From positions 1-21,211 of the IMG/VR virus record IMGVR_UViG_3300031952_002483: DNA of 21,211 bases; one strand, 5' to 3'. Origin of the DNA: a virus. The notes beneath the pieces were generated by a model that had not been told where the DNA came from, ran no database searches, and was given only the letters and a program-made list of their open reading frames with translations. How positions within the stretch are numbered: the stretch's first letter is position 1; every line of letters starts with the position of its first letter. Both the position numbers and the translations under genes were made by a program. Below are positions 1,521 through 18,281 of this stretch, piece by piece.

Positions 1521-2543
1521 TCAGAATTTTTTACTATAATATTGTGATTCTATCCAAGCATAAGTTTTTTCCATACCATCAAAAAGCAATGTGCTTGGTT
1601 GCCAATTAAGAACTGATTGAATAAAAGTATTGTCACTACTGCGACCCGTAACACCTATTGGAGCATTCAAATCATAATATCTTTCTAATTTAATTTCTGC
1701 GATATTTTCAGCAATATCTACCAAATCATTTATTGTCACCATTTCGCTCGACCCTAAATTAATAGGAGTCGCAACCAACTTGTCACAATGCATAATCTGA
1801 TCAATACCCTTTATACAATCGTCTATCCACATAAAACTACGAGTTTGTTTTCCGTTTCCCCATATTGTAATTTTATTTTTTTTGGTATATTTTGCTTCAA
1901 TCACTTTGCGAATAATCGCAGCAGGAGCTTTTTCACGACCCCCATCCCAACTTCCGCAATGTCCGTAGACATTATGAAAACGTGGAATAAAAGTTTTTAC
2001 ACATCTTTCAAACCAATATTCCTGACAAAACATTTCTGAGAGTAATTTTTCGAATCCGTAGCCTCGCTCTGACATAGCTGGATATGCATCAGATTCTTTT
2101 AAAGCACAATTATTAGAATCTTTTTGTAAATTTGTATTATAAACACAAGCAGAAGAAGAAAATAAATAACGTTTGACGCCAGTACGATAAGATGCTTCAA
2201 GCAAATGTGTATTTATTAAAATATTGCGCAAACATTCTACCCTGGAATTTTCAATAAATCCCATTCCGCCCATGTCTGCTGCAAGATTATAAACTTCTAC
2301 TGCATCTTTAGTAGCAATTATTGCATTTTCTTCTTTGCTCAAGTCTAAACATAAATTTTCAACACCACTTATACATTGATACCAATCTGAAATAGGTTTT
2401 ATATCTATTGCACGTATACGCACAAATCCTTGTTTATTAAAATAATTTACAAGATGACCACCAATAAAACCACCAGCGCCAGTAACAACTATTAAATCGT
2501 CTTTATATAATTCTGAATCTGTTGATGCTATTATATTAGTCAT
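1521..2543 (-). CDS. NAD-dependent epimerase/dehydratase, GDP-mannose 3,5-epimerase-like
   Basis: An extended short-chain dehydrogenase/reductase of 340 aa, predicted to act on a nucleotide sugar in the cytoplasm. The N-terminal Rossmann motif is VTGAGGFIGGHLV (about 20-32). The catalytic Tyr/Lys pair is in YGFEK, preceded by the Ser-rich FSSSACVY segment. Several segments resemble plant GDP-mannose 3,5-epimerase from memory: ADMGGMGFI, LKESDAYPA, RFHNVYG, GGREKAPAA, WGNGKQTRSF and the C-terminal GVTGRSSDN. In those enzymes it converts GDP-D-mannose to GDP-L-galactose or GDP-L-gulose. The ribosome binding site is weak (AAGG, seven bases before ATG). It sits just after the fibre/decoration genes, consistent with a role in decorating virions or altering host surface sugars. 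Substrate is inferred only; a related epimerase is possible. Confidence 0.85.
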   Translation of the reverse strand: MTNIIASTDSELYKDDLIVVTGAGGFIGGHLVNYFNKQGFVRIRAIDIKPISDWYQCISGVENLCLDLSKEENAIIATKDAVEVYNLAADMGGMGFIENSRVECLRNILINTHLLEASYRTGVKRYLFSSSACVYNTNLQKDSNNCALKESDAYPAMSERGYGFEKLLSEMFCQEYWFERCVKTFIPRFHNVYGHCGSWDGGREKAPAAIIRKVIEAKYTKKNKITIWGNGKQTRSFMWIDDCIKGIDQIMHCDKLVATPINLGSSEMVTINDLVDIAENIAEIKLERYYDLNAPIGVTGRSSDNTFIQSVLNWQPSTLLFDGMEKTYAWIESQYYSKKF

Positions 2544-2613
2544 TTATTTGCCTTATGTTATTATTGTTATTGTTTATTATATTATGATTTGATTATTTGA
2601 TTATTGTGTGTTA

Positions 2614-2973
2614 TTAATATGCTATCCAGAAAATTTTCTGGCCGGTTTGTACGCTATATGCCGCATTTGGAAGAATAGTAAAGCTTCCAGAAGCAGAAAT
2701 TACAACATACGGAGTTGCTGAACCAGAATAACTACCACTAGCACTATAAAGATTTACGATATATCCAGTTGCATCTGCTACCGCAGTATACAAAGTTATA
2801 CTTGAACCATTAGCTTGGGCTGCTGTTACGGTGTGGGATCCGCTTTTCATTTTTGCTGCTTGAAGTGTAATTATATTCGCTTGTGCGAGTGCTATGGCAG
2901 TTCCCGCTAAAGATCTGTGGAATGCTTCATTCATGTGATTAACTGCTGTAAGTTGACTGCCTGATAAAGTCAT
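2614..2973 (-). CDS. small putative virion protein, paralogue of the next gene upstream (119 aa)
   Basis: ATG at 2973 follows AAGGAG. The N-terminal third is helical (QLTAVNHMNEAFHRSLAGTAIALAQ) and the rest is predicted beta, with SGS triplets (KSGSHTV, SASGSYSGS, SASGSF) and an aromatic C-terminus ending FWIAY. The same plan is seen in the 114-aa protein immediately upstream (…MNKSAQQSALGTAIKTL… ending INWVVY), so the two are tandem duplicates that have diverged. Position after a fibre-type gene and composition suggest a capsid decoration or fibre-tip protein; no named family is recognised. Confidence 0.65.
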   Translation of the reverse strand: MTLSGSQLTAVNHMNEAFHRSLAGTAIALAQANIITLQAAKMKSGSHTVTAAQANGSSITLYTAVADATGYIVNLYSASGSYSGSATPYVVISASGSFTILPNAAYSVQTGQKIFWIAY

Positions 2974-2995
2974 AATATTTTTCTCCTTTTTGTAA

Positions 2996-3340
2996 TTAGT
3001 AGACGACCCAGTTGATACGGTCTAAAGCCGTGACGGTATATCCGGCATTCGCTGTGATTGTTAATGCACAACTGGATGTAGTTACATATCCAGTAAAATA
3101 TAAGCGAGATCCAGATCTGTAAACATCTAAGACATATCCCTTGCTTGTTTCTACCCCAGTTGGTATGCTTAGAGCAGACGCATTTGCGTGGGCGACTGTC
3201 ACACTCATACTTCCCGACCGCATCTCCATTAAAGTTTCGGTATCAGTACCTAATGTTTTAATAGCAGTTCCAAGCGCACTTTGTTGGGCGCTTTTGTTCA
3301 TGCGATTAATTACAGTTGCTTGTGTTGACGAAATACTCAT
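2996..3340 (-). CDS. small putative virion protein, tandem paralogue (114 aa)
   Basis: ATG at 3340 follows AAAGGAGG. Residues 1-35 form a helical segment (QATVINRMNKSAQQSALGTAIKTL). The remainder is beta-rich, with RSGSM, RSGSR and a final VTALDRINWVVY. Shared plan with the downstream 119-aa protein: an MN…A…LGTAI/AGTAI helix, an SGS followed by a TV.A.AN segment, a GY(I/V).(N/D)(L/V)Y segment, and a W(V/I)(V/A)Y end. This supports gene duplication. A structural role (decoration or fibre attachment) is inferred from neighbours and composition, not from a known domain. Confidence 0.65.
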   Translation of the reverse strand: MSISSTQATVINRMNKSAQQSALGTAIKTLGTDTETLMEMRSGSMSVTVAHANASALSIPTGVETSKGYVLDVYRSGSRLYFTGYVTTSSCALTITANAGYTVTALDRINWVVY

Positions 3341-3367
3341 TTTTCCTCCTTTAAGAAAAATCTTTTC

Positions 3368-3409
3368 GTATGCGGAGCCAGAGATGAATAATCATTCTCC
3401 GTTACATAC
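3368..3409 (-). other. long imperfect stem-loop in the leader of the 114-aa gene
   Basis: Bases 3368-3377 (GTATGCGGAG) pair with 3397-3401 plus 3405-3409 (CTCCG and CATAC), with a 3-base bulge. A short inner hairpin (ATGA/TCAT) lies between them. The element sits between the end of the homing endonuclease gene and the ribosome binding site at about 3345-3352, so it may influence translation or mark the junction of the inserted endonuclease gene. Confidence 0.45.
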
Positions 3410-3439
3410 AATTATAATTTCAAGAATATGATTTATATT

Positions 3440-4336
3440 TCATATCCCGTAAATATCTTTGTAAAAACCATTTTTTACTTTATAAACAGTATGTTTTTCT
3501 ATATTTAATTCCTTTGCTATTTTAGTCCCAAAAATTCCCATATCTAACATATCTCTTATTTGTTGAACCTTTTCTTCTTTCAATATATTATGATTATTTA
3601 TTCCAGAATGAGATTCTACCAATTTTTGTATGGTTTCAGCGGAGGGACGTTTTCCCAAATGGGATTCTCTTTGCTTTTGTCTAGTTTTGTCAGATGCTTT
3701 TTTGCCAAACAAGGGATGGTTTTCACCAGAAAAATCAGCATGATTATCTATCATTTTTTGTATTGTTTCAGGAGAAGGATGTTTTCCAGTGTTTGCTTCT
3801 CTTATTTTTTGTATAGATTCTTCAGTATGTTTTCTGCCAGTACTAGATTCCCTATTTTTTTGCTTAGATTCTTCTGTGTGTCTCCTTCCTGCGCTTCTTT
3901 CCCTATTCATTTGATTCATTTCATCTGTGCGTCTTTTACCAGTATTTGCGATGGATATTTTTAACTTCGTTTCTTCCCTATGTTTATACCCTCTTACACA
4001 TTGTCCTCCCCAAGTCTTATTATATCCCCATTCTGAAATATGAGAACGAAATTCCTTGATCCAAAACACTTCTCTTTCATTTAATAATTCAGTGGGACAT
4101 TCTTCTAAAATAAAAAACTTAAAATTTTCTTTTCCTACTTCATTCCATGCAATTTGAAAATATTCGCTGTCGTTATTGTTTTTTAAGTCTCTAAAGTGCT
4201 CATTTTTTCTTCTTTTTAAAAGTTGCCCTTGTCCAACGTATGGTTTTCCATCAATTAAATTCTCGAAACAATATATTCCACTACAGCTACCACTTGTTCC
4301 AATATAATAATTATCAACTAACAACAACATATCCAT
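3440..4336 (-). CDS. GIY-YIG homing endonuclease with NUMOD3 repeats (copy 1, 298 aa)
   Basis: A free-standing mobile endonuclease predicted to cut a specific phage DNA site and promote its own copying by repair. The N-terminal nuclease has G20-I21-Y22, Y33-V34-G35, basic residues in LLKRRKNEH (39-47) and the likely metal-binding Glu E89 in EREVFWI. WGYNKTWGG follows at 103-111. Residues 115-230 carry repeated NUMOD3-type units (HTEES.QK.RE, SPETIQKM), and the end is a helix-turn-helix (KIAKELNIEKHTVYKVKNG). The start follows AAAAGGAA at about eight bases. The first 30 residues are nearly identical to copy 2 (6826-7845), at DNA level too, so the genes share a recent origin. It is inserted between the fibre gene and the 114-aa gene and carries the structured leader at 4345-4439. 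Confidence 0.92.
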   Translation of the reverse strand: MDMLLLVDNYYIGTSGSCSGIYCFENLIDGKPYVGQGQLLKRRKNEHFRDLKNNNDSEYFQIAWNEVGKENFKFFILEECPTELLNEREVFWIKEFRSHISEWGYNKTWGGQCVRGYKHREETKLKISIANTGKRRTDEMNQMNRERSAGRRHTEESKQKNRESSTGRKHTEESIQKIREANTGKHPSPETIQKMIDNHADFSGENHPLFGKKASDKTRQKQRESHLGKRPSAETIQKLVESHSGINNHNILKEEKVQQIRDMLDMGIFGTKIAKELNIEKHTVYKVKNGFYKDIYGI

Positions 4337-6513: not shown

Positions 6514-6795
6514 TTATTCTACAATCATCCAATCCTCAGCAAGAATATCTGTTTGACTTGCTAACCATGGAATTAATTTATTATCAACAGTTTTCATTAC
6601 AATAAAATTTTCAAGATAACTTTGAACTCCATCATAACGTTTATTAAATTCAATTGATTGTTCTTTATAATTTGTATCCGTTGCATAGGCTAAAACAAGC
6701 CACATTCCTTTTCCATTCCAACCAATTCTTGCAACTCTTTTTCCAAGTTTTAAATAATAAAGAGCATCTTCAAAAGAACATAGTTTTTCTTTCAT
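6514..6795 (-). CDS. tad2: Tad2-family (DUF2829) Thoeris anti-defence protein
   Basis: A 93-aa cytoplasmic protein of the DUF2829 family. Tad2 members bind and sequester the cyclic-ADP-ribose-type signal of Thoeris immunity, so the ThsA effector is not activated. Visible family marks: SFEDALYYLKLGKRVAR near the N-terminus, GWNGKGMWLVL (25-35), VMKTVDNKLIPWLASQTDILAEDW near the C-terminus, and the usual length of 70-100 aa. The start follows AAAGGTGG with good spacing. It lies between the second homing endonuclease and the fibre genes, with a terminator-like hairpin right after it, so endonuclease and tad2 may form one inserted unit. Family membership is clear; activity against Thoeris in this phage's host is inferred. 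Confidence 0.87.
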   Translation of the reverse strand: MKEKLCSFEDALYYLKLGKRVARIGWNGKGMWLVLAYATDTNYKEQSIEFNKRYDGVQSYLENFIVMKTVDNKLIPWLASQTDILAEDWMIVE

Positions 6796-6825: not shown

Positions 6826-7845
6826 TTAAATTCCATAGATGTCTTTGTAGCCGCCGTTTTTTACTTTATATACAGTATTTCTGCAAACTCTTAAAATCTT
6901 TATTATTTTGCATATTCTTATATTGTTATTCAACATATTTTCAATCTGTTGAATTTTTTCTTTTTTAGGTTGACTTCCTTCAATCCCATAACTATTTTTA
7001 TAGAAACCATTCTTTGTTCGATAAACAATATTTACATCAATATTTAATTCTCTTGCTATTCGAGGTATGCGAATTCCATTGTCTAGCATATCTTTAACTT
7101 GTTGAATAATTTCTTTTTTATAATTAATTATTCCTTCAATGTTATAAATGTTTTCGTAAAAACCATTTTTTACTTTGCGTATTATGGATTTTCCTATTCC
7201 TAAAACTTCCTGAATTTCTGTTATACAAATTTCATCATCTAACATACGCTTTATATCTTGAACAATCTCTTTTTTTGTAATTCTAGGATGATTTATTCCA
7301 GATTTATATGGTATATTATCTTTTATTTTCTGTATCGTTTCAGAGGAAAGTTTTTTCCCATAGTTCCAATGATTTTCTCCAGATTTATCAGGCATATTGT
7401 CTTTCATTTTTTGTATAGTTTCAGGAGAATGATGTTTATCTTTCATCCAACTATTGTCTTTCATTTTTTGTATAGTTTCAGGAGAATGATGTCTTCCTCT
7501 AAAAAAAGCACCCCCTCCCCAACTTATATTGTATCCCCAATCCGAAACATGAGAATGCAATTTAGCAATCCAATAAACTTCTTTTTCATTCAATAATTCA
7601 ATTGAACATTCTTCTACGATATAGAGTCTAAAATTTTCTTTTCCATCTTTATTCCAGGCTTCTTGAAAATATTCACTATCTTTATTATGTTCCAATAAAC
7701 CAAAGTGAGTTTGTCTTCTTTTCTTTAAAACTTGCCCCTGCCCTGTGTACTTCTTTCCATCCAACAAATTCTCAAAACAATAAATTCCACTGCAACTACC
7801 ACTTGCTCCAATATAATAATTATCAACTAACAACAACATATTCAT
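6826..7845 (-). CDS. GIY-YIG homing endonuclease with NUMOD3 repeats and three C-terminal HTH units (copy 2, 339 aa)
   Basis: Paralogue of the copy at 3440-4336. The start at 7845 (MNMLLL) is chosen because AAAAGGG lies eight bases upstream; a start at 7869 would put the binding site inside the gene. The nuclease shows G20-I21-Y22, Y33-T34-G35, VLKKRRQTH and E89 in EKEVYWI. NUMOD3-type repeats read HSPETIQKMKDN, two of them encoded by a perfect 40-bp duplication. The C-terminus has three tandem helix-turn-helix units, each ending VKNGFY or similar (RKVKNGFYENIYNI, RTKNGFYKNSYGI, KVKNGGYKDIYGI), where copy 1 has one. This suggests a different or longer target. It sits between portal and tad2 and carries the structured leader at 7854-7938. 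Confidence 0.92.
   Translation of the reverse strand: MNMLLLVDNYYIGASGSCSGIYCFENLLDGKKYTGQGQVLKKRRQTHFGLLEHNKDSEYFQEAWNKDGKENFRLYIVEECSIELLNEKEVYWIAKLHSHVSDWGYNISWGGGAFFRGRHHSPETIQKMKDNSWMKDKHHSPETIQKMKDNMPDKSGENHWNYGKKLSSETIQKIKDNIPYKSGINHPRITKKEIVQDIKRMLDDEICITEIQEVLGIGKSIIRKVKNGFYENIYNIEGIINYKKEIIQQVKDMLDNGIRIPRIARELNIDVNIVYRTKNGFYKNSYGIEGSQPKKEKIQQIENMLNNNIRICKIIKILRVCRNTVYKVKNGGYKDIYGI
7396..7492 (-). repeat. perfect 40-bp direct repeat inside the homing endonuclease
   Basis: 7396-7435 and 7453-7492 are identical over 40 bp, offset by 57 bp (19 codons), so the frame is kept. They encode two successive NUMOD3-type DNA-contact units. Perfect identity points to recent duplication by slippage or recombination. 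Confidence 0.85.
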
Positions 7846-7853
7846 TATATTTT

Positions 7854-7938
7854 CCCTTTTCATTCCCATGATATATGCATGGAAACAAGGGGAATTCTTG
7901 CTTTCAGACGACTCATGACTTTCGTCCTATCCATGCAT
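7854..7938 (-). promoter_or_regulatory. candidate cis-regulatory RNA: three-way junction plus pseudoknot at the ribosome binding site (copy 2)
   Basis: Outer helix P1: 7930-7938 with 7875-7883, 9 bp, sequence unrelated to copy 1. P2: 7922-7926 with 7907-7911 (GACGA/TCGTC). Junction TGAAAG. P3: 7897-7900 with 7886-7889 (CAAG/CTTG). The P3 loop ATTCCC (7890-7895) pairs with GGGAAT (7862-7867), one base before the AAAAGGG binding site (7854-7860). Compared with copy 1, P1, P2, P3 and the pseudoknot all change on both sides while GATAGGACG and CGTCTGAA are kept. It begins ten bases after the portal stop. Function is inferred as control of endonuclease translation. Confidence 0.7.
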
Positions 7939-7947
7939 TTACCAAAT

Positions 7948-9534
7948 CTACAATTTGCCACCTTTTTCTATATTACTCGCTGAATCACGCGTATTACTAC
8001 CTGCATCTCCTAATTCAGATGAACTCTTTTGAGGTCTTCCGGCATCCTTGCCCCCCTGTTGGAAAGCTGAAATTATTGGAGTCAACTTGTCTGTAAATCC
8101 AGTCTCGCGTCCCTCATCCAATTGTCTCTGAAAATCAAACGGAGACATTCCAAGGGATGCTGCAATTTTTTGAGGAAGTACCATTCCCAAAGCAGAAAGC
8201 TCCATTTGCTTATCAAAACGTTGTTGACGATCAGTATAAAAATTAGATCCTTCTAGAGAAAATTTAAACTTAAATTTATCTGTAAATCTGTTTACGTGAT
8301 AATTAAGAAAGGCAGCCATTTGAGGATAAATATTTTCCATTAACTGAATATCTACCCCAAGTGATAATTGAGTTTCGACAGCATTCATTTTCAAATCATT
8401 GCTGAATATAAGATTTGAATTTACTCCACTCATAGCAACAGATGTTTTTAAATAAGAAGAATATAATTCATTTTCCGCTGGAAAATTAATACTTTTTACA
8501 TTATTCAAAGGAAGAGCCGCGGTTTTCACCGCGTCGCCAATAGATGATTTGACCAAAGCAAGAAAATTTCCCAAAAGCGCAGGCGAAATATTAAAAGCGT
8601 CTTTAAGTTTTGCAGCAGCATCTTTTAACTGTCCAACTTCTCCAATTATAATTCTGCTTGCAGCGCTCATATTGATATTTTTCTGTAATGATCTCATTAT
8701 TGATTGATTCACTAAATCAGAAAAGAGACCTGTGAAGTATGGAATCCTCGTAGAAAGTGCCGGGTTTAATTTGAAAACATGTCCCACATCCACTGGAATA
8801 TCCATCCAGAACACCCAACTAGAATTTCCCCTTGCTTGGGGAGATAAGCTGGGATCATAAGTTTGTAAAGCATTATTATTTCCACATAGTTCATTATATT
8901 TTTTTATAAAAAAATTTGGATATAAATTTATATCTACCCCCGGCAAAATGAACCAATAAGCCGACATTGAAAATAAAAATCCGTATGACCAACGTCCCGT
9001 AATCATCGTATAATTTGGGCTTGCCGGCAATGCCTGTAACACTATCTGATCCATGTCCCATCGGGGACAGAAGAAGAATGTTTCGTTCCTCAGCATTTCT
9101 CCAACAGCAATATTAAACTCTTTTTTATAGTCGAATTTGTCGAAGAATTCGGAAATTTTATCTTTGTCCCTTTGATAACTTTTTCCAGAATAATCTCCTG
9201 TCTTTGCATTAATACAGGTATAATTCATATCAAATGCCAAAAGATTCTGCAAATAAGAAAGTAGCCTTTTATAAATTTGTGATTTAGATTCAAAATCCTC
9301 AGAAAACGATTGAAGCGCAAGTTCAGAATTTTTTGGGTCTATTAAAGCATCATTTAAAGATTGTTCTGTTGCTGCCAGGGGATTAAGATTAAGATCCTTC
9401 ATCCTTTGATTCAACAACATGGGAGTCATAATGTTATTATATCCATATCCCCCAAAAGAACTAGCGAACTCTAATATATTCCAAACATTTTCTTCAGATA
9501 ATTCATCTGTATTATTTTTTGTAATTTCTTCCAA
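7948..9534 (-). CDS. phage portal protein (528 aa)
   Basis: Predicted to form the dodecameric ring at one capsid vertex through which DNA is packaged and ejected. The identification rests on its place directly after the large terminase and on its length (portals are usually 400-550 aa). Its make-up also fits: a helical N-terminus, a central region with RNETFFFCPRWD and LPASPNYTMITGRWSYGF (about 150-185), a long helical stem, and a disordered Gly/Ser/Asp C-terminus (FQQGGKDAGRPQKSSS…). The start is TTG at 9534, preceded by AAAGGAGG with nine-base spacing. No protease or major capsid gene follows in this window; the next gene is the inserted homing endonuclease. Confidence 0.75.
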   Translation of the reverse strand: MEEITKNNTDELSEENVWNILEFASSFGGYGYNNIMTPMLLNQRMKDLNLNPLAATEQSLNDALIDPKNSELALQSFSEDFESKSQIYKRLLSYLQNLLAFDMNYTCINAKTGDYSGKSYQRDKDKISEFFDKFDYKKEFNIAVGEMLRNETFFFCPRWDMDQIVLQALPASPNYTMITGRWSYGFLFSMSAYWFILPGVDINLYPNFFIKKYNELCGNNNALQTYDPSLSPQARGNSSWVFWMDIPVDVGHVFKLNPALSTRIPYFTGLFSDLVNQSIMRSLQKNINMSAASRIIIGEVGQLKDAAAKLKDAFNISPALLGNFLALVKSSIGDAVKTAALPLNNVKSINFPAENELYSSYLKTSVAMSGVNSNLIFSNDLKMNAVETQLSLGVDIQLMENIYPQMAAFLNYHVNRFTDKFKFKFSLEGSNFYTDRQQRFDKQMELSALGMVLPQKIAASLGMSPFDFQRQLDEGRETGFTDKLTPIISAFQQGGKDAGRPQKSSSELGDAGSNTRDSASNIEKGGKL

Positions 9535-9560
9535 TTTTTAAACCTCCTTTCTTAGTAGGC

Positions 9561-11378
9561 TTATACAACCATCGTAATTCCCAAGACTTCTTCCGCTGCA
9601 TCATAATCCCCAACTTCTTTGAGTAAGGACTTATCCAAATGCGAAATCACATAATTCATATAACTAATAGCAGAATACCGATCTTTATATGAACCAGGCT
9701 TAGAGTCCAATTTTAATAAACCATTAACAAGAGTTAAATCCAAATTAACACATTCATTAATAAATAAACTTGTTTGTACATAAGTATTTAAAAATCGAAC
9801 AGTTGTCTCAGAATCATTAGCATCATTCATAAATTCTTTGTTGTTTTTTATTAAAAATTCTTCTGCTAAATTTTCGTCTATTAAAAAATTCCAAAGTTTT
9901 TTCTGGAGGGCAGATCTAAAGTTTGCAGCTATCAAACTATTAAGCTGTTGACTTGCAGATATTGGAAATATCACCTGCAATGCGCCCAAACCCAAAGTCC
10001 TAGATTCTAAATCTTCCCTTGCTTTTCCATCAACAAAATTATATTCCTCACCAACTATAGTCATAGCGGGATAAGTAATTCCCCGTTCATCATGTTGAAT
10101 AGATTGCGACAGAGAATCATATACACTAATTCCACTACCCAAAATATCAAGAACTAACAAATCACAAGAAAAATCAAAAAATATTTCTTTAATTCTTTTA
10201 GCCTGTAAAACAGTATTCAATCCCTTGTGAGATTCCAAATATACTAAATTTCTTTCATAACCTTTGTTTATCAATGGAATCAATTTCGCACAAGCAATAA
10301 TCGTCAAGTCATTATTGCGATTAGCCCTAGTCGCAACATCAACAGACATAATACGTAATTCATTTTCTACTTTATTAATATCATAATTATTTTTTTTAGA
10401 ATTATAATTTAAATCTGTTTGGGGATAAAATGCTCGTTTTATATTGCGTTTAAAAAAATTTGGACGATAATAAGATTTGCCGCTAGTTTCACTTGGCAAA
10501 TTAAGATATTCATGCTGAACAGTTATAGAATCTGCCTCATCCATTTCATTTTTAATCATTGCTTCAGTTTTGATATTGTGATAAATTGTAATTAAATAGT
10601 CAAATGCAAGAAAGTTTGCAGTCTCATCTCCCTCGGACATTCTTTTTATGCATGATTTAACATATTGATACCAGTATCCAACAGTAAAATGCGCACTTGT
10701 AATATATGCGATTATACCTTCTTCTTTTAATCTATCGTCATTTTTATATGCTGAAAGCAATCGGTATGGAGGTGTTCTTGAAAATAAAAATGGTTTAATA
10801 ATTCCTTCAAGAACATCTTTATCAACAAGACGTGATTCTTCAACAATAATAAAATTGGATCTATTTCCACGCGCTGATTCAGAAGACGGAACAACACGAA
10901 TAGTAGAGCCACAATGAAATATGACCTCATAAGTATTTTGATTTGCCGTCAAACTTTTAATTTCTCTAGCGACATTAGGATGAAGACTTCGCAAGGATGT
11001 GATTTTTTCAATAATAAGTCCGCCCTGTTTAAGCGTGCTAGAACAGGCAATAATTTGAATACCAGGATATAAAATAGCTAAGCACAAACTATAAACCGCA
11101 ATCATAAATGTCTTCGCAGAGGCTCTGGCTGCAACAATATAGCATAATGTGCTTCTTTGCAATACCCACATTATTAAAATTTGATATGGATGCAAATGAA
11201 TACCAAGATAAGTTTCAACAAAGCGATGAGGATTAGATCTCATAAAGTGGATCCATCTCTTCAATCTTTCTTTTCTTTCTCCATCTAAAGTCTTACTCCG
11301 CACCATTTGTTTTGGTTGTTTAAAAACATCTTGAGAAAGAACATTTTTATTAAAATCAGATGCATAATAATCCGACAT
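9561..11378 (-). CDS. terL: terminase large subunit (605 aa)
   Basis: The packaging motor and headful/cos nuclease. The N-terminal ATPase has a variant Walker A, AARASAKT (83-90), where family members often keep only the final K-T, and a Walker B with catalytic acid NFIIVEES (175-182). The RNase-H-like nuclease domain begins at LRIMSVDVATRANRNND (341-357). Its likely metal ligands are D347, D411 (LLVLDILGSG) and D566 (YKDRYSA). Length fits the family. ATG at 11378 directly follows the stop of the preceding gene, with AGAGGAAG upstream, so the two are coupled. The order small terminase, large terminase, portal is standard in tailed phages. Confidence 0.93.
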   Translation of the reverse strand: MSDYYASDFNKNVLSQDVFKQPKQMVRSKTLDGERKERLKRWIHFMRSNPHRFVETYLGIHLHPYQILIMWVLQRSTLCYIVAARASAKTFMIAVYSLCLAILYPGIQIIACSSTLKQGGLIIEKITSLRSLHPNVAREIKSLTANQNTYEVIFHCGSTIRVVPSSESARGNRSNFIIVEESRLVDKDVLEGIIKPFLFSRTPPYRLLSAYKNDDRLKEEGIIAYITSAHFTVGYWYQYVKSCIKRMSEGDETANFLAFDYLITIYHNIKTEAMIKNEMDEADSITVQHEYLNLPSETSGKSYYRPNFFKRNIKRAFYPQTDLNYNSKKNNYDINKVENELRIMSVDVATRANRNNDLTIIACAKLIPLINKGYERNLVYLESHKGLNTVLQAKRIKEIFFDFSCDLLVLDILGSGISVYDSLSQSIQHDERGITYPAMTIVGEEYNFVDGKAREDLESRTLGLGALQVIFPISASQQLNSLIAANFRSALQKKLWNFLIDENLAEEFLIKNNKEFMNDANDSETTVRFLNTYVQTSLFINECVNLDLTLVNGLLKLDSKPGSYKDRYSAISYMNYVISHLDKSLLKEVGDYDAAEEVLGITMVV

Positions 11379-12389
11379 TTAATCTTCCTCTTTTGATTGA
11401 ATGATTTCCGATATTGTATCATCCTCAATGTCCATATTATCATCATCACTATTTAAATCAAAATTTCTTGTCAAACCAAGAAAATTACTCAACGGTCTTG
11501 TTACAAATTTTCTAAAATACCATTCAATATTATCGACATCTTTAAATAGTTGTTTGTCTTTATAAAAATCAGCAGGTTCTGTCTCCTCTATTATTTTAAT
11601 AAAAGAACTAAATGTATCTTGACTTTTACCAGCTCCAGCAATATTGCTTTTAGCAGGATCAACTGAAGCTGTTTTCATTAATTCTTGTAACATTTTGATT
11701 TCGTTATTGGGAGATTGTCCTTGACTTGCAAATCGCTTTTCTCTAATGTTCAATTCCATAAAACAAATTTGTCTTAAAAGACTTTCTTCAGTGGCTGTGT
11801 CGGATTTGTGACTGCGTCTATAACGCGCCATTTCCGACTCCAAAAAATTGTATTGCTCATCACTTAATCCGCTTCCCCAGAAATTTTTCAAATACTCCAT
11901 ATCAACAATATCAAGATTATTATCTTGAATTTCTTCAATTAATTCTTTGCTAGGTTCTGTAAACATCATATCCATACCATCAGTACCAACAGTAAATGAT
12001 GCTCCACCGCTTGTTAATTTGCTCTTGTAGATTCCAAAAACGCCCTTTTGTTCTTTTCCCTTAGCTTGAATAGTATTGATATGAGTATGTAAAGCATTTA
12101 ACGCCTTTTCTGAAAAAGCAATGTTTAAACTTCTACAAGTACGTAATATAGCTTTATCAATATTACGTTCTAAAACAAAATAATTATCATAAATATTATC
12201 AACACAATCATGACAAATAGATAATAATCCATTACTATCCAGGAACAAATCTATAGCCGTATAAAAATCTTTACCATCTTTTACCTTCATGCATTTTCTA
12301 CAATATGATTTTCCAACTGTCAATCCAGATATGGTCGTTACAGAACCATTCCCTAAAATTTTTTTTCTTTTTGTTGCTCTAGTTACCAT
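11379..12389 (-). CDS. probable terminase small subunit, zinc-ribbon type (336 aa)
   Basis: Assigned mainly by position: it ends exactly where the large terminase begins and starts with a good AGGTAGGG site. The N-terminus is basic (MVTRATKRKKIL), followed by a zinc ribbon (C30, C33, C59, C62). The middle is helical, and the C-terminus is strongly acidic (NSDDDNMDIEDD) like many terminase partners. It is much longer than typical small terminases (about 150-200 aa), so it may instead be a packaging accessory or a late regulator. The function of recognising the packaging site and handing DNA to the large subunit is inferred. Confidence 0.55.
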   Translation of the reverse strand: MVTRATKRKKILGNGSVTTISGLTVGKSYCRKCMKVKDGKDFYTAIDLFLDSNGLLSICHDCVDNIYDNYFVLERNIDKAILRTCRSLNIAFSEKALNALHTHINTIQAKGKEQKGVFGIYKSKLTSGGASFTVGTDGMDMMFTEPSKELIEEIQDNNLDIVDMEYLKNFWGSGLSDEQYNFLESEMARYRRSHKSDTATEESLLRQICFMELNIREKRFASQGQSPNNEIKMLQELMKTASVDPAKSNIAGAGKSQDTFSSFIKIIEETEPADFYKDKQLFKDVDNIEWYFRKFVTRPLSNFLGLTRNFDLNSDDDNMDIEDDTISEIIQSKEED

Positions 12390-12400
12390 AATTCCCTACC

Positions 12401-13369
12401 TTATGCAGTAGTTTTCATCAATCCTTTTCTTTTTTCTTTTGACAAACACTGTTCTTGTGTTCTCCCAATAGCATGACAATTGTTACAACGAAAAGATTTG
12501 AATAATCCTGCTGGAGTACTATATAAATTACTAATATATTCAAAATCTGTACTACCACAATAGCCGCATACAGACTCTTTAGAATCGTGCCATAATCCAA
12601 TGTTGGGATGATTTTTAATCCAGGGACGAACCGCCAAATATGTTTCTTGTAACGCAATGACATCCTGTTCATTATAATCAAGCATATCATTCAAAGAATG
12701 TCCATCCCCAGCAATACATCTTTTCCATAGATCTAATCCCCCAGTCTCTTTTTTTCTTTCAAGATCAAGAGTCAAATTTACATAATCCATTGCCCTTGAA
12801 GTAAAAGCAAAATTCCTGGATATAGTTTGAAAAACATCAATACTTTTATAATTTGAGGGTGGATATATTTCATTAATAATAAATCTGGTATTTACTTTTG
12901 GAATATCAAAATTATTACCATTATAAGTAATAGCAATATCACATTTATTTAAAAGTTCCCACAATTCCTTAAGTATTCTTTTATCATCTTTCTTAATAGC
13001 TTCCTTAGAAGTTAGAACACTAGAATAAATATTTTCATCGTATAGCCATTTCGCAGCATAAGAAATTATAAACCAATCATTTAAAATTTGATTTTTATTT
13101 ATATATTGTTTATTAATTCCCCATGATGCAATTTCAATATAACTAGTTTCAATATCAAATATTAAAATTTTTGGATTATTTTTAATATTTTTATTTTTGA
13201 GTATTCCTTGTTTTGTAATGCCCTTTTTTTTACGTGCTCTTTTAAATGCTCCCCTCAGTATCTCACCATCTTGGTATCCAAATTCTTGTGCAAGCTCAGG
13301 CCAAATAGAAATACCACCACTGCTTACCATCCATTTTTCATAACATGCTTGAAATACTTTTTCTTCCAA
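12401..13369 (-). CDS. DEDDy 3'-5' exonuclease (RNase H-like) with C-terminal zinc ribbon (322 aa)
   Basis: A predicted nuclease acting on DNA or RNA ends. Exo I is ILIFDIETS (D72, E74), Exo II is ITYNGNNFDIP (D155) and Exo III is DYNEQDV (Y232…D236), making a complete DEDDy set as in DnaQ/YprB-type exonucleases. Residues 1-50 look like a small helix-turn-helix (WPELAQEFGYQDGEILRGAFKRA). Residues 268-298 form a zinc ribbon (CGYC…CNNC). TTG at 13369 follows AAGGAG at about eight bases. No polymerase domain is attached, so it acts as a separate protein. It lies right upstream of the terminase genes, and its leader is the structured RNA at 13399-13632. Confidence 0.85.
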   Translation of the reverse strand: MEEKVFQACYEKWMVSSGGISIWPELAQEFGYQDGEILRGAFKRARKKKGITKQGILKNKNIKNNPKILIFDIETSYIEIASWGINKQYINKNQILNDWFIISYAAKWLYDENIYSSVLTSKEAIKKDDKRILKELWELLNKCDIAITYNGNNFDIPKVNTRFIINEIYPPSNYKSIDVFQTISRNFAFTSRAMDYVNLTLDLERKKETGGLDLWKRCIAGDGHSLNDMLDYNEQDVIALQETYLAVRPWIKNHPNIGLWHDSKESVCGYCGSTDFEYISNLYSTPAGLFKSFRCNNCHAIGRTQEQCLSKEKRKGLMKTTA

Positions 13370-13398: not shown

Positions 13399-13632
13399 GT
13401 ACGCCTTACCATTGTGTTTTACGTCATTTCAAAAACAACTTGTCTGTGTGAACAAGACGTTATCTGCCCTAATAGTTGGGTGGAATCTAATAAGTGACGT
13501 TCTCTGTCCCCTAAAGAGGGACAGCTTCACAGTCAACGTTCTTCCCAGTGGAACACGTTAGCGACTGTCCGCTTCGTCCAAGCGGTATTTATGGACACAA
13601 CTCCGCGATTCCCTTTCTCTCACAAAGCGTAC
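13399..13632 (-). ncRNA. candidate 234-nt structured RNA between the HU-like and exonuclease genes
   Basis: This gap is visibly richer in G and C than its surroundings and its ends pair: 13627-13632 with 13399-13404 (GTACGC/GCGTAC) and 13621-13625 with 13412-13416 (TTGTG/CACAA). Four inner hairpins are visible: 13569-13585 (CCGCTT/AAGCGG, loop able to pair with an upstream GTCC), 13535-13559 (AACGT…TTCC with an internal loop), 13504-13524 (CTGTCCC/GGGACAG) and 13439-13456 (CTTGT/ACAAG). It starts five bases after the HU stop and ends thirty bases before the exonuclease start, so it could be a leader element or an independent RNA. No known family was recognised; the strand is inferred from gene direction. 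Confidence 0.6.
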
Positions 13633-13637
13633 ACAAA

Positions 13638-13952
13638 TCAAATTTTTTCTTCTGTTTTTAATCTATCGTTTGCAACATCTCTCAATTGCTTAGATGGTCT
13701 GAAACTTATCGTATATGATTTGGGACGAATTATATATTCATTCTTTTTGGGTATCCAGTGTCTATGAGACTCTACAATTGTAGTATACATTCTAAACATA
13801 TTACTAATTGTTATTGAGCTATGTTCTTTCGCAATTCCCATAATAATATCTTCAAATCCAATTAAAAAAATATCTGCATCTTCAATAGAAAATCCACAAC
13901 GTTTAGATATTTCACGAGCTAACCACTTACGATTATATGTGGACAATTTCAT
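13638..13952 (-). CDS. HU/IHF-like DNA-binding protein (104 aa)
   Basis: A small histone-like protein expected to bend and compact DNA, acting in phage replication, recombination or packaging. The pattern fits HU: an N-terminal helical pair (NRKWLAREISKRCGFSIEDADIFLIGFEDIIMGIA), a strand pair (SSITISNMFRMYT), a beta-arm region, and the closing TISFRPSKQLRDVAND, which corresponds to the usual …F.P.K.L…VN of the family. It is slightly longer than typical HU (about 90 aa), with a short basic/acidic tail. ATG at 13952 is preceded by GGAGGG with a rather long spacing of about 12 bases. The usual conserved Gly/Phe of the arm base is replaced by N-M-F, so it is a divergent member. Confidence 0.8.
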   Translation of the reverse strand: MKLSTYNRKWLAREISKRCGFSIEDADIFLIGFEDIIMGIAKEHSSITISNMFRMYTTIVESHRHWIPKKNEYIIRPKSYTISFRPSKQLRDVANDRLKTEEKI

Positions 13953-14738: not shown

Positions 14739-15478
14739 GGGGTTGGTTCCTTTTTATGAGCTGATATTCTTTTGTTTGCAATATCAAAATATTCTTTATT
14801 GTTTTCAAATCCTATATAATTGCGATTGGTATTTATACATGCTATTGCAGTTGTTCCTGAACCCATAAATGGATCTAAAATAATTGTATTTTCGGAACTT
14901 AAAAAAGTAATAATTCGTATAGGTAATTCCAAGGGATAAGGAGCAGGATGTCCTAATTTTCTTTTTGTTTCTGGTTTAATATTCCATACACTATGAATTA
15001 AACTAAGAAATAAGTCTTTTTTAATTTCAGTTCCTATTTTTAATTTAGGATTTTCTTTATGCGCTATTATAATCATTTCATGTTCATCAATTAAACAAGG
15101 ATTAGAAGAAGAACGCCATGATCCCCAAGATGTTTTTCCGCCTCCATTTTGTTTATTCCAGACTATTGAACCTCGTAAAATATAACCAATATTTTGCATT
15201 AATTTACAAGTATCTGCATATATAGGTATCCAAGGATTCCTACCATATCCATCAGGAACATTAATTGCAATACGACCAATAGATTTTAATTTCATAAAAC
15301 AAGATTGTAATATATTATTCAAAAAAGATAAATAATCTTCATAAGAATCCCATTCCGCATATTCAGGTCTAGCATTAAAATAAGGAGGAGATGTAATTAT
15401 TAAATCAATACTATTATCATCAATTCTTTTCATGCCTTCAAAACAATCTTCAAAATAAATTTTATTAATTTTAATCAT
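14735..15478 (-). CDS. DNA methyltransferase, TSPPY type (247 aa)
   Basis: A site-specific amino-methyltransferase of DNA. The catalytic motif TSPPY is at 29-33, which in this family usually goes with N4-cytosine methylation, though adenine is possible. The S-adenosylmethionine-binding motif DPFMGSGTT is at 202-210, giving the beta-class order with catalysis before cofactor. HPAPYPLELP (177-186) is another common segment. Length is typical of stand-alone phage methyltransferases, and no restriction enzyme is next to it, so protection of phage DNA is likely. The start overlaps the end of the RNA polymerase gene by eight bases, with GAGGA upstream. Confidence 0.9.
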   Translation of the reverse strand: MIKINKIYFEDCFEGMKRIDDNSIDLIITSPPYFNARPEYAEWDSYEDYLSFLNNILQSCFMKLKSIGRIAINVPDGYGRNPWIPIYADTCKLMQNIGYILRGSIVWNKQNGGGKTSWGSWRSSSNPCLIDEHEMIIIAHKENPKLKIGTEIKKDLFLSLIHSVWNIKPETKRKLGHPAPYPLELPIRIITFLSSENTIILDPFMGSGTTAIACINTNRNYIGFENNKEYFDIANKRISAHKKEPTP

Positions 15479-18281
15479 TTATATAATCCTCATTATTACT
15501 ATTTTTCTCAATCTTTATTTCAGCTAAATAATATTTATCACCCAAATACTCTAGTTTTCCTTTTCCCAAGAATGGTATAAAATGTCTGGATTGTTTATTC
15601 AACATTACATTTTTTATAATACCATCCCCAAAAATATTCCATACGAAATTTTTATTATCACCAGGATGAGTTTCATAACATATATTTACAGCAAGATTTG
15701 CTAACTCAGATATATTTGAACTTACATTTGTTAATGATTGTTGTAATATATATTTATTATATTGTTCTAATGTTTTATATAATATGTTCCCCCTATCATC
15801 TCGCAGCATTGCAAAAATTCTTTTCCCTGATTTATAAACTTTATAAATTGCATAGAGTTTTTTGAATTTAATTTTATCAAATTTTATTTTTGGATTTTTT
15901 AATATTCTTATTATATCATCTGGAGTATTTTTATTTATTGATAATTTAATTTCTTTTATATTAGATTCCATGTAATGACAAATTTGGTTTATTGTACAGT
16001 CAGAATCCAAAAGGGGGGAAAATCTATAGTGTTTATTTATAAGAGACTGTTCATGCAAATCTTTAGAAACACATTCCTTATTTAATAACTCATCAATGGT
16101 TATTCCAAAATTTGCAATGGCAAAATTATTATAATTCTCTACAAATCTTTTGTATTTTTTATTATATTTTGTATATAAATATTTCATAAAATACGGGCGT
16201 TTATATACAAGTATCTTATTATCAAAATCAATAAAACTTTTTTCTATATCTGTCATATCAGATTCTTTTTTATTCCAATTCGTCCAACGCAATGGAAATT
16301 TTTTAACGACCAATCCCTTTGCTTTATCTATTTGTTGTCCTTGTTTTTGTCTGCATAATTTTAGTCTCTCTATAATTGTATTATATTCTTTGCTGTCTAT
16401 ATCATATTCTGGTAGCATTGAATACATTGTGGTTGAAACATTTGTTATAAATCCTACTTTGCTATTGAATGCAACCATATCAGTTAAATACAATTGGTCT
16501 TCTTCTAAAATTGTTTTTGGAATATTAGCAGTTTCATAATAAATGGGCAGTCCACCTCTAGCAGTATCAATAATTTCTTTGCTAGATGTTGTCATTACTA
16601 AATCGCCATCAAAATCAGAATCTGCGTGTAACATAGTATCATTTCCATGGATATTATATATTATTCCCGAATAAATATGTTTATACCAATGTTTTATGTT
16701 TTTATTTATTGCTAAATCAAGTACATTAACTTCTGATTTCCAAGTCAAAGGAGCACGCATAGCTACAACCTTTTTTATTTTCTTTTTATTCCAATATTGA
16801 GAATAAGACTGAGATTTTTGTAATAATCCCGACACAGGCAATCCCAACACGTGTTCAGTCATTGCATAGGGATCAGCAATCATAGTTGAATAATTACCAT
16901 CAACAATAATATTGCCAATATATGATTCTTTTATTTTTTTATTCAGGGAATGCAATATATGATTTTGTATATAAATATCATCAATAAGATTATTATTTAA
17001 TATTAATGCTTTTGTAATTTTATCATTGATTTTGTTGAAAATATTTGCATCATAATCTCCAAGAACATATTTTCCAAGTAAATATAATAATGCATATTCT
17101 ACATTTCCATTAGCACCAACGATAGTTTTGCTAAAATATTCAAGTGTATCTTTGCATAATGATTGTATCTGACTAGCATCCAAATCAAGAACTTGTAAGA
17201 ACTGATAATTTAAAAATACATGATGTTTATCAAATTCAGAACTTACACGAGATATTCTCCAATGCAAATTATTTTTTCTAAGATTATCAATATAATCATC
17301 AATAGATCTATAATTATTCCATAATTTAAATTGAGATTCTGATATTATCAAATCTATTGTTGATATGTCTACATAATTCCCCCAAATATCTTGAATCATA
17401 CGAATACCCTTTTCTTTTGCTAATTCATGAAAATCAAAAACACAAACCATACCTTTTAAAAAACTATTTCTTATTACAAAAGAAGATGGCAAATAATTTA
17501 ATTCTAATTCATCTGTCCATATTTGTGCTGCATTTGGAGATATTAATCCCTGCCCATCAAAAAGATTAAATTCAATGTTTTTATTAATTTCCTCAATTTT
17601 ATCATTGTCTCCAATTGTATCCTCAATAACCATATCTACCATTTCGTTGCGTTCAATGATAAGGTCTTTCACTACTGCAAATCTTAAATTGCTAACCTCT
17701 AATCCTGCACTTGCGCATAGTGAAAAGTATGCATTGTACTTTGCTGGAGATATTTCAGTATCTTTTAAAAACCCATTCTGCAATATTTTTTGCATAGATT
17801 CTTGATATTTTTGATCAATAAAAATCACAGAATTTCTACGTGCTTGTCCAGAACTACATAAGAATCTAACAAATTTATTTCCATTTATTATCAATCCTTT
17901 ATGTACAATGTGTACATAATGTCTATTGTCCTCAACAACAATAGAAATTATCTCAGGAACAAATAATAATTCATCCATTTCTTTTTCAATTTCTAATAAT
18001 CTTTTACTATTTATTAAACTTGATTTTTTATTATGTATTTGTTTTCTTTCAAGAAATAAATTATCAATTTGTTCCTGGTTGTCAGGTAACCCCTTTATTT
18101 CACGAAGAGATTGAAGCAGTTGAGAATCTCCAAGACTTACCAATTCCGCATTTCTACGACTTTCAGGAATAGTAAGTGAAATATTATATTTAGATTTTCT
18201 CAGTCTGATGGAAGAAAATTTAAAAATATTATACTGTTGAAGTTTCTTTGGCAATAAACTTTCCCTTATTTTGTGTGTCAC
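15471..18281 (-). CDS. single-chain DNA-directed RNA polymerase of the YonO/QDE-1 two-barrel type (936 aa)
   Basis: A predicted phage RNA polymerase distinct from the T7 type, carrying both double-psi beta-barrels on one chain, as in SPbeta YonO and eukaryotic RNA-dependent polymerases. The catalytic Mg-binding motif is D556-F-D558-G-D560 in HADSDFDGDLV. Other family marks in order: RFLCSSGQARRNSVIF (139-154), DGQGLISP (242-249), SSFVIRNSFLKGMV (266-279), YSTMIADPYAM (464-474), MRAPL (508-512), as in the …R.P… before the catalytic loop, and QGQQIDKAKG (647-656). The GTG start at 18281 has no clear ribosome binding site; a structured leader precedes it. It likely transcribes middle or late phage genes. 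No sigma-like partner is visible here. Confidence 0.87.
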   Translation of the reverse strand: MTHKIRESLLPKKLQQYNIFKFSSIRLRKSKYNISLTIPESRRNAELVSLGDSQLLQSLREIKGLPDNQEQIDNLFLERKQIHNKKSSLINSKRLLEIEKEMDELLFVPEIISIVVEDNRHYVHIVHKGLIINGNKFVRFLCSSGQARRNSVIFIDQKYQESMQKILQNGFLKDTEISPAKYNAYFSLCASAGLEVSNLRFAVVKDLIIERNEMVDMVIEDTIGDNDKIEEINKNIEFNLFDGQGLISPNAAQIWTDELELNYLPSSFVIRNSFLKGMVCVFDFHELAKEKGIRMIQDIWGNYVDISTIDLIISESQFKLWNNYRSIDDYIDNLRKNNLHWRISRVSSEFDKHHVFLNYQFLQVLDLDASQIQSLCKDTLEYFSKTIVGANGNVEYALLYLLGKYVLGDYDANIFNKINDKITKALILNNNLIDDIYIQNHILHSLNKKIKESYIGNIIVDGNYSTMIADPYAMTEHVLGLPVSGLLQKSQSYSQYWNKKKIKKVVAMRAPLTWKSEVNVLDLAINKNIKHWYKHIYSGIIYNIHGNDTMLHADSDFDGDLVMTTSSKEIIDTARGGLPIYYETANIPKTILEEDQLYLTDMVAFNSKVGFITNVSTTMYSMLPEYDIDSKEYNTIIERLKLCRQKQGQQIDKAKGLVVKKFPLRWTNWNKKESDMTDIEKSFIDFDNKILVYKRPYFMKYLYTKYNKKYKRFVENYNNFAIANFGITIDELLNKECVSKDLHEQSLINKHYRFSPLLDSDCTINQICHYMESNIKEIKLSINKNTPDDIIRILKNPKIKFDKIKFKKLYAIYKVYKSGKRIFAMLRDDRGNILYKTLEQYNKYILQQSLTNVSSNISELANLAVNICYETHPGDNKNFVWNIFGDGIIKNVMLNKQSRHFIPFLGKGKLEYLGDKYYLAEIKIEKNSNNEDYIND

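Follow-up and report, generated by a model that had tools for sequence, protein, structure and literature searches.

A candidate family of pseudoknotted RNAs at the head of the late operon in phages with a YonO-type RNA polymerase

Introduction

The gap between two genes of this SPbeta-like phage, an HU-like gene and an exonuclease gene, raises the question of what fills it. The window analysed here is the whole stretch of 21,211 nucleotides, and the segment in question is 234 nt long. An earlier note had described it as a structured RNA, which might be an independent phage RNA, a riboswitch-like leader or the relic of a mobile element. The best reading of the present analysis is a new phage RNA family at the head of the late operon, a stable RNA being more likely than a riboswitch or a mobile-element relic. 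As judged from sequence comparison and from analogy with phage SPbeta, we give a probability of about 0.55 to the fuller proposal that this structured RNA of an undescribed family is the first product of the late operon, and that it persists, or is trimmed, as a stable trans-acting RNA.

Genomic context

The genes around the segment lie on the minus strand in the order YonO-type RNA polymerase, DNA methylase, 246-aa protein, HU, the RNA, exonuclease, probable small terminase, large terminase and portal. The features that define this neighbourhood are as follows.

15471-18281, minus strand: YonO-type single-chain RNA polymerase gene (Pfam RdRP family, E 8.5e-21; tblastn matches to YonO of phages BUCT082 and SPbeta)
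13638-13952, minus strand: HU-like gene, ending at 13638, in the position of SPbeta yonN
13399-13632, minus strand: the whole RNA element, 234 nt (GC maximum, fold z -3.2, covarying core common to L124, L204 and L038)
12401-13369, minus strand: DnaQ-like exonuclease gene, the first after the RNA (PHROG 403, E 9e-81)
7948-12389, minus strand: probable small terminase (by position), large terminase and portal (PHROG matches for the latter two; order as in SPbeta and relatives)

The element is read from 13632, which is RNA position 1, to 13399. The HU stop at 13638 precedes it, and the exonuclease ribosome-binding site (about 13381) and TTG start (13369) both lie downstream, so that the limits and the gap-filling reported in the earlier note hold. 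The element occupies the slot after HU and before the exonuclease/terminase block in a phage with a YonO-type polymerase, and we propose that this polymerase transcribes the late operon.

Three other genes of the window may be recorded here. A protein with a Tad2-like (Thoeris anti-defence) domain is encoded at 6514-6795 (minus strand, E 3e-23), and two free-standing GIY-YIG/NUMOD3 homing endonuclease-like genes lie near the structural genes (3440-4336 and 6826-7869, minus strand).

Composition and folding of the segment

The GC content of the element is 0.462 as compared to 0.305 for the 21,211-base record, and none of the other 234-nt stretches, sampled in steps of 10 nt, is as GC-rich, in agreement with the claim that it exceeds all its neighbours. 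It folds better than its dinucleotide shuffles on both strands (z of -3.06 on the plus and -3.28 on the minus strand; -3.2 for the minus strand in a repeat run). The internal hairpins noticed earlier are real in the sense that the fold beats the shuffles, but the strongest of them fall in a part unique to this phage.

13498-13592, minus strand: insert specific to this phage (RNA 41-135), absent from L124, L204 and L038

This insert has a GC content of 0.52, a fold z of -4.3 and three strong hairpins including CUGUCCC/GGGACAG, and it supplies nearly all of the folding signal of the element. The conserved core by itself is unremarkable by energy (z -1.2), because it depends on a pseudoknot. No tRNA or tmRNA was found in 13399-13632.

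Conserved core architecture

The family has four known members, namely the window RNA and elements in three other phage records (L124, L204 and L038), the sequences of which are almost unrecognisable between phages while the predicted fold is the same. The comparison shows a core with the predicted order P1, AGAGAAA, P2, P7 with a pseudoknot from its loop to the 3' side, P8 and GUAAAA, in which a variable loop is expanded in this phage. Its parts in the window are given below.

13624-13632, minus strand: P1 5' strand GUACGCUUU (in 7 of 9 P1 pairs both bases change among window, L124 and L204)
13399-13407, minus strand: P1 3' strand AAGGCGUAC (the same 7 of 9 pairs)
13614-13620, minus strand: motif AGAGAAA, separated from P1 by exactly 3 nt in each of the four members
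13607-13612, minus strand: P2 5' strand GGAAUC (UGAAUC in L124 and L204, UACAA in L038; partners change to match)
13482-13487, minus strand: P2 3' strand GAUUCC, the changes of which track the 5' strand
13467-13480, minus strand: P7 hairpin CCC-AACUAUUA-GGG, conserved in the alignment
13471-13476, minus strand: loop side of the pseudoknot, ACUAUU, inside the P7 loop (both bases change in 4 of 6 pseudoknot pairs)
13408-13413, minus strand: 3' side of the pseudoknot, AAUGGU, directly adjoining P1 (the same 4 of 6 pairs)
13439-13456, minus strand: P8 hairpin CUUGU/ACAAG (one pair with a compensatory change in three members; CCCU/AGGG in L038)
13417-13422, minus strand: conserved motif GUAAAA, inside GACGUAAAA in three members

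The closing helix P1 comprises 9 bp, formed by GUACGCUUU/AAGGCGUAC in the window RNA, AAUAUUCUG/CAGAGUAUU in L124 and AGGUGUCUC/GGGACACCU in L038. It corresponds to the outer of the two end helices proposed earlier; the other one, UUGUG/CACAA, overlaps P1 and finds no support in the relatives. P2 is formed by GGAAUC/GAUUCC in the window, UGAAUC/GAUUCA in L124 and UACAA/UUGUA in L038. The pseudoknot is ACUAUU/AAUGGU in the window, GCAUAUA/UAUAUGC in L124 and UCCGC/GCGGA in L038, that is, three unrelated sequences pair in identical alignment columns. The window RNA carries every part by which the family is defined: P1, a 3-nt spacer, AGAGAAA, P2, P7 with the loop pseudoknot beside P1, P8 and GUAAAA.

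Covariation and statistical support

L124 and L038 were first noticed by eye, each end of their gap carrying short motifs that the window RNA also has. Across the 2.36 Mb of loci, AGAGAAAGNGAATCGYG without mismatch and TTTTTGA(0-4 nt)GACGTAAAA each occur only in the window and L124, on both occasions in the slot. A covariance model was built from these two sequences only, with the variable loops trimmed. It ranks the L038 element first in its own locus (21.3 bits, E 0.006; runner-up 11.5 bits), and finds the fourth member, L204, at 98.6 bits in a previously unexamined part of its record. Recovery of L038 and L204 by a model of the other two is a non-circular test of the predicted fold.

Comparison with related phages had been named earlier as a check for covariation, and its outcome favours the pairing. 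In the alignment of the window, L124 and L204, all 29 pairs are standard, pseudoknot included, and 14 of them have both sides changed, a result matched by none of 500 shuffles, although the 29-pair structure was derived from the sequences on which it was tested. Sliding the partners by 1-3 columns lowers the pairing to 29-47%. Since L124 and L204 are closely related, the covariation contrast lies mostly between the window and this pair. With L038 included, 113 of the 116 cells of the four-way alignment pair, and the pseudoknot shows three to four pair types per variable column; this alignment was made by hand on trimmed sequences from which the variable loops had been removed, the L038 row being placed manually since MAFFT misplaced it. 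At the level of alignment, L038 adds an independent line of support for the fold.

Shuffles that preserve AGAGAAA reach the observed architecture score in 2 of 1000 cases for the window and in none of 1000 for L124 or L038, which is support and not proof, as the descriptor was derived from the members scored. A-C pairs are absent from the core as read on the minus strand, where five G-U pairs occur; this speaks for an RNA on that strand. The same fold with compensatory changes in four phages, together with the matching genomic position, supports the suggestion of an independent phage RNA.

Searches for matches and further members

The search of Rfam 15 with the window RNA, also suggested in the earlier note, gave no family at gathering score and none at E<=10, and the elements of two relatives gave only chance-level matches. 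The L124 and L038 elements had only chance blastn matches among named phages. An exact 18-mer of the RNA has its sole match in a tail gene of a GC-rich phage, which was judged to be chance. Plain local alignment of the window with L124 was not significant (43 of 500 shuffles were as good), owing to the insert and a wrong alignment path; structure had to be taken into account in the comparison.

Of the 291 matches to a relaxed motif-plus-helix pattern, those inspected were coding or AT-rich; the full descriptor alone separated the three true members, from which it had itself been derived. Beyond L204, no member came from 113 loci and 75 phage records, nor from bacterial genomes, of which 12 were of bacteria with related polymerases and 391 belonged to a single class; many YonO-type relatives gave no match to the window RNA. 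HU, the large terminase and the polymerase as single queries led to no new RNA-carrying relatives. As the genome search missed the L038 member, these empty searches are weak evidence of absence.

The slot in SPbeta and other relatives

The gene order of SPbeta matches that of the window: yonO, yonN (HU), a 1.7-kb non-coding gap, yonK, yonJ (exonuclease), terminase and portal. Forrest et al. (2017; PMC5467207) reported that YonO transcribes the SPbeta late genes as a single operon, with a start upstream of yonK and of "an unannotated non-coding RNA"; the placement of this start in the slot follows the wording of that paper, which leaves the YonO promoter open. No study was found in the literature on the role of the SPbeta yonN-yonK RNA. 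The yonN-yonK region is 95% identical over 1.5 kb between SPbeta (L020:13154-14834) and BUCT082 (L016:7244-8961), despite only 25% identity of their YonO polymerases over the aligned part. Both regions match DUF3800-VIII RNA, and that of SPbeta also has a sub-threshold skipping-rope match.

About 100 loci of relatives, obtained from searches with polymerase alignments, were surveyed for the content of the slot. Many Bacillus-type records have a non-coding gap of 0.5-2.2 kb there, with a GC content of 0.38-0.44 as compared to about 0.34 for the loci; such a gap is missing from other relatives, L036 and L122 among them. In three metagenomic relatives (L092, L125 and L126), a tRNA lies in the gap ahead of the exonuclease or terminase. 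In L206 another gene lies between the RNA and the exonuclease.

Three further arrangements were observed. A different RNA with three hairpins, the stems of which change on both sides, occupies the slot in L037 (14323-14415), L039 (14455-14550) and L119 (16292-16386), with fold z of -2.9 to -3.8; its hairpins are common to L037 and L039, the arrangement in L119 is alike, and a kissing loop is possible between CCCGC and GCGGG (L037/L039) or CCACGC and GCGUGG (L119). A third element of about 90 nt directly follows the tRNA in L125 (13461-13550) and L126 (9493-9582), with 68 of 91 columns identical between the two and changes in both strands of the closing stem; when the L126 stretch was compared with Rfam, only the neighbouring tRNA scored above chance. 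L002, the nearest exonuclease relative other than L001, has a reverse transcriptase of the diversity-generating type (by eye) and an RT-18 RNA match between the HU-like gene and the exonuclease (2375-2455 and 2461-3519).

Proposed role and rival explanations

In the preferred reading, the RNA would be transcribed along with the phage genes, from the minus strand. Comparison shows a pseudoknotted core closed by P1, which compensatory changes have preserved in the four phages. The YonO-type polymerase may start the late operon just upstream of it, by analogy with SPbeta, where the equivalent site has been mapped experimentally; with such a start, the window RNA would be the first product of late transcription. 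With its closed P1 and pseudoknot, it could survive or be trimmed to a stable RNA of its own, which, to judge from its position and architecture, might act in trans late in infection. Its slot would be the place where sister phages put tRNAs and other structured RNAs. Against this reading, the SPbeta RNA is no detectable homolog of the window RNA, the family counts just four known members, of which two are closely related, and the position of all members upstream of late genes also suits a cis-acting leader.

Such a leader, acting on the polymerase, is the main rival, and we consider it possible but clearly less probable. The nascent RNA would bind the phage or host polymerase, as HK022 put does, stabilise the long late mRNA, or sense a ligand for late translation. 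In its favour, late genes follow immediately downstream of all four members, and in three of them the exonuclease comes first. Against this, no expression platform or ribosome-site pairing linked to P1 was noticed by eye in the window, and the promoter/terminator scan gave no terminator-like site on the minus strand. P1 closes both ends of the RNA, the following start codon lies at varying distances from P1, L206 has a gene in between, and tRNAs and unrelated RNAs take the slot in sister phages; these observations make a separate stable RNA likelier than a gene-specific leader.

A broader and more speculative proposal, which we hold to be rather doubtful, is that YonO-polymerase phages reserve the head of the late operon for RNA genes and refill this slot with structured RNAs of unrelated kinds, all of which serve one late-infection need, e.g. 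polymerase processivity or host takeover. Its occupants would be the pseudoknot family, the kissing-hairpin family, the third small family, tRNAs and the 1.5-kb SPbeta RNA.

A packaging RNA acting on the adjacent terminase, like the pRNA of phi29, is very improbable. The terminase genes do follow shortly downstream, and phi29 pRNA is of comparable order in size and pseudoknotted fold, but the window terminase matches large-subunit families (PHROG) with a probable small subunit beside it rather than a gp16-like motor, and many YonO-type relatives have no match to the window RNA. Equally little weight is given to a DNA element (a packaging or replication site) or a chance fold: both strands of the element fold about equally well, but a DNA cruciform does not explain core covariation that includes G-U pairs and a pseudoknot, and the rarity of the architecture among the AGAGAAA-preserving shuffles (2, 0 and 0 of 1000) argues against chance. 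Least credible is a guide RNA, active or relic, from a TnpB or IscB element of the IS200/605 type, a reading prompted by the visual likeness of one hairpin and by a compact, GC-rich, pseudoknotted RNA with no nearby gene of its own: the cited hairpin lies in the phage-unique part, Rfam gives no match at E<=10 for the window RNA and chance-level ones for two relatives, no TnpB zinc-ribbon (PF07282) occurs in the four records searched (G000, G003, G013 and G018, possibly incomplete; the control search worked), and P1 closes both ends, leaving no 3' guide.

Comparison with known systems

If the window RNA acts in cis on a polymerase, the put RNA of phage HK022 would offer a functional model; put RNA is short and has two stem-loops. 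The structured phage RNAs GOLLD and ROOL have no known function and often lie near tRNAs; GOLLD rises during lysis and ROOL has multiple pseudoknots (PMC12286853). They differ from the window RNA, which has no Rfam match, in being over 600-800 nt long. Skipping-rope RNA (RF02924) and DUF3800-VIII RNA (RF03075) are likewise orphan structured RNAs, of which RF03075 matches the SPbeta slot and RF02924 does so weakly, but neither matches the window RNA.

The closest parallel in position is the SPbeta yonN-yonK non-coding RNA, published as transcribed (PMC5467207). Like the window RNA, it lies between the HU gene and the late operon of a YonO-type phage, with a GC content above its surroundings (0.42 as compared to 0.35); it differs in its length of about 1.5 kb as against 234 nt, in showing no sequence or model match to the window RNA and in its DUF3800-VIII match. 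What is new here is a candidate undescribed RNA family with a covariation-supported pseudoknot in phages that use the minimal YonO polymerase, and the window RNA would be tied, via SPbeta, to the only place at which YonO is known to initiate transcription of late genes.
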